A DNA stretch of 64,000 nucleotides. It comes from Candidatus Methanoperedens sp. (lineage in GTDB: Archaea > Halobacteriota > Methanosarcinia > Methanosarcinales > Methanoperedenaceae). A program made the translations under genes and the position numbers. Positions 2,375-3,906 of the stretch are shown one piece after another. The stretch lies in NCBI GenBank assembly GCA_023249105.1, contig JAHFDG010000018.1, positions 1 through 64,000 on the forward strand, in the 5' to 3' direction. The first letter of the stretch is position 1. Every line of letters begins with the position of its first letter. The notes beneath the pieces are model-generated. The model was not told the DNA's origin and searched no databases. It worked only from the letters and a program-made list of their open reading frames with translations.

Positions 2375-2647
2375 ATGCCAAAAATAAAAGTAAAGCTCTT
2401 TGCCAATTTCAGGGAATTCACCGGTACAAAAGAGCTTGAAATAGACGGCATTACAGCCAGAGAGATTCTCAGTATGCTCTGTAAAAAGTTCCCGGGATTT
2501 GAAAAAATGCTTTTAAAAGGAAAGAGCCTGCAGCCTTACGTCAATGTCTTCTTAAACGGAAGAAATGTTCTTGAATCCGGCGGACTGGATGCAATTATCA
2601 ATGCGGGCGATGAAATCGCGATTTTCCCTCCTGTGTCGGGTGGCTGA
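2375..2647 (+). CDS. MoaD/ThiS-family small sulfur carrier (SAMP-like)
   Basis: A 90-aa beta-grasp protein ending in the diagnostic C-terminal Gly-Gly (FPPVSGG), which is adenylated and thiocarboxylated by an E1-like enzyme. Family members act as the small subunit of molybdopterin synthase and, in archaea, also as ubiquitin-like modifiers (SAMP). The start is supported by GAGAGG a few bases upstream. The stop codon overlaps the start of moeA by one base (TGATG), so the two genes are translationally coupled. This favours a molybdenum or tungsten cofactor role, without excluding protein modification. Confidence 0.88.
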   Translation: MPKIKVKLFANFREFTGTKELEIDGITAREILSMLCKKFPGFEKMLLKGKSLQPYVNVFLNGRNVLESGGLDAIINAGDEIAIFPPVSGG

Positions 2648-3906
2648 TGTTCAGGCAAAGAATGAACGCCGATGAGGCAAAGGAACTATTTTTAAAGGCA
2701 TTTGTACCTCTTTCCGACACCGAAAAACTGCCAATCGCGGATTGCGACTGCAGGATTATTGCAGAAAATATCACTGCTGCTATCAATGTGCCTAATTACA
2801 GCCGCGCGGCGATGGATGGTTTTGCTGTCAGGGCATGCGATACGCTGGGGGCGGGAAGCAATTCCCCAGTCGTTCTCAAACTGGCAAAGGCTGTTGAAAG
2901 CCGAAACTTCGGCTTGCGTCGTGTTGGGGTATGCGAAGCATACCCCTTGTTTGATAAACCTTTCTTAAAGGTTTTTGAAAACGGTACATGCGTAAGGGTA
3001 CATACAGGTTCGCCAATACCTGATGGTGCGGACGCTGTGGTGATGCTGGAAGATGCGGTTTTGAGGGAAGATAAAGTTGAGATATTCATGCAGCTCCATC
3101 CCGGGAAGAACGTAGGGGAAACCGGTGAGGATATCAAAAAAGGGGAGGTCATTCTTAAGGAAGGACACAGGCTCCGTCCCTGCGATATAGCTGTTCTTGC
3201 GGCGCTGGGCATCAGGGATATTCCGGTCTTCAGGAAGCCTCTTGTAGCCGTAATTCCCACAGGCGAGGAACTCGTTTCAAGGGAAAACAAAACACTCAGG
3301 GAAGGAGAAGTCTATGAAACCAACGGGTTGATGGCAACGCTGTATATAAGGAAATGGAGCGGCGCATCGAGGCTGCTTGATATAGTGGAAGACGACCCTG
3401 AAAAGATAAAAGATGCGATTTCATCCAATCTCGATGCCGATATGATTATCACAAGTGGCGGAACGTCTGTGGGAAAACGTGATTTCGTTCCGGGCGTAGT
3501 CGGCTCCATGGGAACGTTGCTTGTCCACGGAGTAGGTATAAGCCCGGGCAAGCCCACGGCGCTTGGCATCATAAAAGGCAAACCTGTGGTATGCATGCCC
3601 GGCTACCCGGTCGCAGGTATCGTGGCGCTTTTCTTTTTTGCAAGGGAAGCGCTCCGGAAGCTGGGGCATATACCGGATGAGCAGGACAGGAAAGTTCATG
3701 CGGTATTGTCTGGAAAAATACCCGGAAGAACCGGATATAAAACATTTGCCCGTGTCAAATTAGAGAAAGGAAAAGCTATCCCTCTTGCAACATCGGGCGC
3801 AGGGATAATGAGTTCAGTTTCGAAAGCCGACGGGTTTGTAATTATACCTGAGAATGTAGAGGGTTACGATAAAGGGGAAGAGGTTGAGGTGGTGCTTATC
3901 GAATAA
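2647..3906 (+). CDS. moeA: Molybdopterin molybdotransferase MoeA with a palindromic in-frame insertion
   Basis: A 419-aa MoeA-family enzyme, which inserts molybdate or tungstate into adenylylated molybdopterin. Family motifs are visible: NYSRAAMDGFAV near residue 50, VRVHTGSPIPDGADAVVMLEDA near 117-138, IPTGEEL near 200, TSGGTSVGKRDF near 273, and GISPGKPTALG followed by CMPGYPVA. A domain IV follows at the C-terminus. Between about residues 84 and 110 there is an extra segment, from SRNFGLRR to FLKVFE, coded by three consecutive perfect hairpins in the DNA. Normal MoeA proteins run directly into the VR-TGSPIP motif here. The frame is open across the insertion, so the protein is probably still made. 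It is coupled to the upstream MoaD-like gene. Confidence 0.92.
   Translation: MFRQRMNADEAKELFLKAFVPLSDTEKLPIADCDCRIIAENITAAINVPNYSRAAMDGFAVRACDTLGAGSNSPVVLKLAKAVESRNFGLRRVGVCEAYPLFDKPFLKVFENGTCVRVHTGSPIPDGADAVVMLEDAVLREDKVEIFMQLHPGKNVGETGEDIKKGEVILKEGHRLRPCDIAVLAALGIRDIPVFRKPLVAVIPTGEELVSRENKTLREGEVYETNGLMATLYIRKWSGASRLLDIVEDDPEKIKDAISSNLDADMIITSGGTSVGKRDFVPGVVGSMGTLLVHGVGISPGKPTALGIIKGKPVVCMPGYPVAGIVALFFFAREALRKLGHIPDEQDRKVHAVLSGKIPGRTGYKTFARVKLEKGKAIPLATSGAGIMSSVSKADGFVIIPENVEGYDKGEEVEVVLIE
2898..2974. repeat. Triple-hairpin palindromic element inside moeA
   Basis: Three perfect inverted repeats lie in a row. The first is AAGCCGAA/TTCGGCTT at 2898-2915 with a 2-nt loop. The second is GGGGTATGC/GCATACCCC at 2926-2946 with loop GAA. 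The third is AAACCTTT/AAAGGTTT at 2956-2974 with loop CTT. The stretch is translated as about 26 extra residues in MoeA, between two motifs that are normally adjacent. It resembles in concept the protein-coding palindromic elements known from Rickettsia. Its identity as a mobile repeat family is inference. Confidence 0.7.

Follow-up and report, generated by a model that had tools for sequence, protein, structure and literature searches.

The analyzed window comprises 64,000 nucleotides of a Candidatus Methanoperedens contig (genome G000) and contains a moeA-like gene on the plus strand (positions 2647 to 3906; 419 amino acids [aa]), which was assigned by ortholog alignment, by matches to all three Pfam domains MoeA_N, MoCF_biosynth, and MoeA_C, and by matches to the MoeA structures 1xi8 and 1wu2 of the PDB. 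The upstream open reading frame (ORF) on the same strand (2375 to 2647), which ends on the first base of moeA, is ubiquitin-like and MoaD-like by sequence, an identity given by inspection only. Within moeA, positions 2898 to 2974 (plus strand) are occupied by a 77-bp palindromic element with three perfect hairpins, each supported by folding and covariation, i.e., hairpin 1 (2898 to 2915) with 8-bp arms and a 2-nt loop (AAGCCGAA ac TTCGGCTT), hairpin 2 (2926 to 2946) with 9-bp arms and a GAA loop (GGGGTATGC gaa GCATACCCC), and hairpin 3 (2956 to 2974) with 8-bp arms and a 3-nt loop (AAACCTTT ctt AAAGGTTT), which is preceded by TTTGAT. Comparison with empty sites identifies the flanking TTGA tetranucleotides on the same strand as the left (2894 to 2897) and right (2975 to 2978) copies of a 4-bp target duplication. 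Three perfect palindromes had been described at this place in an earlier note on the bare sequence, and their coordinates proved to be exact, since the hairpins and the match of the family covariance model in the window fall precisely on 2898 to 2974.

As single-stranded DNA, the 77 nt fold with -21.5 kcal/mol (z = -7.1; none of 200 shuffled sequences folded as well), and as RNA they fold with -32.2 kcal/mol (z = -5.4). The arms vary between copies of the element: hairpin 1 occurs as AAGCCGAA/TTCGGCTT, AAACCGAA/TTCGGTTT, AAAGCGA/TCGCTTT, AAAGGG/CCCTTT, and others, hairpin 2 as GGGGTATGC/GCATACCCC, CAGGTATGC/GCATACCTG, GGGGTATC/GATACCCC, and more, and hairpin 3 as AAACCTTT/AAAGGTTT and AAAACTTT/AAAGTTTT. 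In an alignment of 26 copies, 94.6% of the cells were paired, and the covariation score amounted to 0.250 versus 0.097 +/- 0.010 after shuffling (0 of 500 shuffles were as high) and 0.03 to 0.08 with the partners shifted by one to three columns. These copies were chosen with the requirement that hairpins 1 and 3 pair, which biases the test towards structure there, but hairpin 2, for which no criterion was applied, exhibits the same covariation. The hairpin structure is thus maintained between copies by compensatory changes.

The search of the genome for further copies of the 77-bp unit, by sequence and by covariance model, brought dozens to light. BLAST with the segment located about 35 places in G000 and more in its relatives. 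The covariance model was built from 26 copies and applied to the best 150 candidates per genome, so that high counts may be too low; it yielded at least 60 matches in G000, 63 in G041, 56 in G015, 49 in G022, 44 in G009, 42 in G001, and 40 in G044, and between 0 and 14 in each of the 24 remaining genomes of the genus. The best seven matches of the Cgi121 protein come from the same seven high-copy genomes, which suggests one clade-specific expansion. Among about 120 searched genomes of other genera of the order, there was one marginal match only (E = 8e-4), and the named genome records with full-length copies belong mostly to Candidatus Methanoperedens, with a few other archaeal bins; the host is accordingly very likely a methane oxidizer of the Methanoperedens type. 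No copies were found in plasmid records, phage records, or IMG/VR contigs.

MoeA orthologs within the genus have a length of about 392 aa, compared with 419 aa in G000, and all those compared in the alignment lack the segment. The two closest ones (89 to 90% identity; 392 aa) exhibit the empty sites ATTGAAAACGG (G015) and ATTGAAAAAGG (G009), while the filled site of G000 reads GTTGA-[77 bp]-TTGAAAACGG. The segment is accordingly neither ancient and conserved nor single-copy, the circumstances that would have told against the earlier note. The in-frame gain that it described is real, but its number of 26 extra residues has to be corrected to 27 (S85 to E111; 81 bp) because the TTGA is duplicated: as the 77 bp and the 4 bp add up to 81 and one sense frame is free of stops, MoeA gains 27 residues and stays open. 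The gained residues are SRNFGLRRVGVCEAYPLFDKPFLKVF plus one duplicated E in translation. The flanking motifs MDG-A and VHTGSP are both intact, as the note had likewise held for the frame and the motifs; two substitutions, H50N and R52S (protein numbering), lie close to MDGFA. The AlphaFold prediction of MoeA with the insert has pLDDT values below 50 at residues 50 to 161, and the insert-less control ortholog is also low at residues 53 to 132. The assemblies are drafts and probably metagenomic, but a misassembly at moeA is unlikely because the flanks match on either side and the 4-bp duplication is exact.

The very stable RNA fold and the compensatory conservation of the hairpins would fit a structure that evolved in place within moeA as a functional RNA or for regulation, e.g., an attenuator or a processing site. 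Such an origin of the segment is, however, refuted by the genome-wide matches and the empty orthologs, and Rfam contains no family that is matched by the element, which makes this explanation highly improbable; the copy in moeA might nevertheless have acquired a regulatory role after its insertion.

In-frame insertions were observed in three genes, i.e., in moeA and Cgi121 of G000 and in a cyclase-like gene of G009 (named by inspection; a Pfam search gave no match), and all three share the gain of 81 bp, the duplicated TTGA, and an identical orientation and frame. The KEOPS gene Cgi121 (Pfam CGI-121) is filled after codon 5 (MIHIL-ESRNFGLRSVGVCEAYPSFDKTFIKFFE-GTIFIDN) and empty in G015, G044, and G009, with ATCC-TTGA-GGGCACG in G015 versus ATCC-TTGA-[77]-TTGA-GGGCACG at the filled site. 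The cyclase-like gene is empty in G044 (CTTC-TTGA-AAAGCAG), G000, and G015. In the consensus reading of the element, only one of the three forward frames is free of stops, and it is the one used within genes; in the reverse direction two frames of three are open, and a search with one of them yielded start-codon neighbors and composites only, with no clear in-gene insertion. Long open frames through the copies L207, L208, L221, L226, and L236 to L252 were dismissed, since they are open by chance within composite repeats between genes or represent the antisense of start codons. In-frame copies are few, i.e., three among several hundred family matches. Since filled and empty sites are available in genes whose proteins have diverged by only about 10%, the insertion can be reconstructed at single-base resolution, so that the entry of such elements into genes, and its effect on the protein, become directly testable.

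The dN/dS ratio of moeA is about 0.14 in comparison with both G015 and G009 and equals that of the G015-G009 pair, and the changes unique to the G000 branch comprise 21 nonsynonymous and 31 synonymous ones versus 31:45 and 22:46. The gene with its insert remains under purifying selection, although a very young insertion could give equal values. Two further MoeA-like paralogs of G000 (33 to 35% identity) might supply the function, so that moeA could be a pseudogene in decay that has kept an open frame by chance, but the low dN/dS, the lack of an excess of amino acid changes on the G000 branch, and the same open frame in three separate genes with the insertion render this quite unlikely.

A sister subfamily of the element (75 to 84 bp, mostly 75 to 76 bp), whose hairpin 1 is AAAGGG or AAAGCG, inserts at ATGA. 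Both flanks of these variants are often TCAT, and the left TCAT represents the start codon of a gene that is read in the opposite direction; the genes concerned, named by inspection, are PheS-like, RtcA-like, HemL-like, endonuclease III-like, and others. The start codon of pheS is filled in G009, with a duplication of ATGA, and empty in G044 and G015. An ORF of at least 150 aa begins at 7 of 10 distinct TCAT/ATGA sites, compared with 12% of random ATGA sites (P ~3e-5), in a test in which phylogeny was handled by merging obvious orthologs only and the survivors of selection alone are visible. An upstream ORF also ends at four of the 10 distinct ATGA sites. The duplicated ATGA thus restores the start codon of the gene and, within operons, the stop codon that overlaps it. 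Copies placed in this manner point to a simple rule by which mobile DNA may survive in compact operons. The same gene junction keeps an element in two species in the case of L051/L055 and also of L040/L043, which hints at old or useful operon insertions.

The 4-bp target duplication is seen at four sites with empty relatives (moeA, Cgi121, the cyclase-like gene, and pheS). Taken as a whole, the moeA segment very probably arose when a short palindromic element, non-autonomous and MITE-like, recently inserted into the gene. The hairpins may be recognized by a trans-acting enzyme that cuts a 4-bp target (TTGA in moeA) in a staggered manner, and the repair would duplicate the target on both sides. 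The family reaches further tolerated sites in the same way: a duplicated ATGA rebuilds a start codon or the overlap of a stop with a start codon, and a duplicated TTGA can rebuild a stop codon. Copies in a lethal frame are presumably removed by selection and not avoided by the enzyme, and the element would survive where the duplication is harmless. It is conceivable, with a clearly lower probability, that the machinery of a selfish element itself prefers ATGA and TTGA, with the duplication rebuilding the translation signal, and that an alternative form with a net length of 3n enters coding sequences. If true, this preference would be a built-in safe-harbor strategy for entering dense archaeal operons.

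Neither a mobilizing enzyme nor a parent transposon was identified in a transposase search directed at Y1. Mobilization of a REP- or PATE-like element by an IS200/IS605 (Y1) or RAYT transposase, with the apparent duplication being the cleavage tetranucleotide at each end, would agree with the hairpins at both ends of the element, each of which is adjoined by a tetranucleotide, and with the presence of Y1 transposases in the lineage. However, the flanking tetranucleotide varies (TTGA and TCAT) and yet matches the empty site in each case checked, and the copy number does not follow the Y1 count. Since no Y1 gene was detected in G015 despite its large number of copies and none of the five Y1 loci of G000 has a copy nearby, mobilization by Y1 is judged unlikely. 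The terminal inverted repeats of the MITE-like element are very short (about 5 bp; AARCC...GGYTT) and thus shorter than those of a typical MITE. Some copies lie within other repeats, where the duplications look longer or unclear.

With respect to related repeats, the element is found within an arm of the hairpin repeat CCCGAGTCACGCCT / CGGGAGGGCGTG in nested or mosaic arrangements (L008, L009, L010, L012, L106, L139, and L144), whose modules join at TTTGA(T). The element has also inserted frequently into another dispersed repeat, of the type CGCAGAT...ACGCGGATAAACGCAGAT (L024, L026, L030, L003, and L007). A CbiD-like protein (L376; G042:C379) has a C-terminal tail that is encoded by a composite of element hairpins directly before the start of the next gene. 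A hairpin resembling hairpin 3, often TGCGAAGCRTTTTGATCAAACTTTCYTAAAGTTTGAT, is present in contigs of ANME-1 (Methanophagales), other Methanosarcinales, and Syntrophoarchaeum, and looser versions were observed in Altiarchaeota, Nanohalarchaeota, Diapherotrites, and Methanocaldococcus, some of them apparently beside tRNA genes (L097, L099 to L102, L108, L114, L134, L145, L154, L161, and L175, including the looser versions). These recurrences possibly reflect a wider archaeal hairpin family.

Protein-coding palindromic elements have been described in Rickettsiales; in the literature searched, which covered few subscription papers, neither a report of such elements from archaea nor a description of the present element was found. 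REP/REPIN sequences with RAYT and PATEs resemble it in their hairpin units and clade-specific amplification, whereas it is not tracked by Y1, enters genes, and carries a 4-bp target duplication. The BOX elements of the pneumococcus likewise consist of hairpin-forming units in a modular arrangement, but the element resides in a different host and its modules also occur one inside the other. The tandem repeats of Borgs, which are extrachromosomal elements of Methanoperedens, are direct repeats that add in-frame amino acids and are reported to be virtually absent from host genomes (PMC9879509). The element has in common with them the host genus Methanoperedens and the addition of in-frame amino acids, but it consists of dispersed inverted repeats in genome bins of the host genus. 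For MITEs of bacteria and archaea, in-frame fusions have been reported (PMC10969869). Like MITEs, the element is short, non-autonomous, multicopy, structured, and target duplicating; unlike them, it has terminal inverted repeats of about 5 bp only and three separate hairpins with interchangeable variants. The palindromic elements of Rickettsia (RPE) and Wolbachia (WPE) are dispersed repeats, also found in intergenic regions, that lie within unrelated preexisting genes and are translated there in frame (PMC10969869, PMC3767692). The likeness to Rickettsia palindromic elements noticed earlier holds for behavior, i.e., for a palindromic repeat with many dispersed copies that is translated in frame as part of unrelated proteins. 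In contrast to RPE/WPE, the present element has about half the length (75 to 84 bp versus 100 to 150 bp), is built differently from three hairpins, shows an exact 4-bp target duplication at empty sites, has a start-codon subfamily and few in-frame copies, and lives in an archaeal host, with no Rickettsiales record among the matches listed. It is set apart from RPE by length, build, and host domain, so that the likeness is one of behavior and not of membership. The best reading by analogy is that the element may be regarded as a functionally archaeal counterpart of the Rickettsia palindromic elements that is organized like a MITE.
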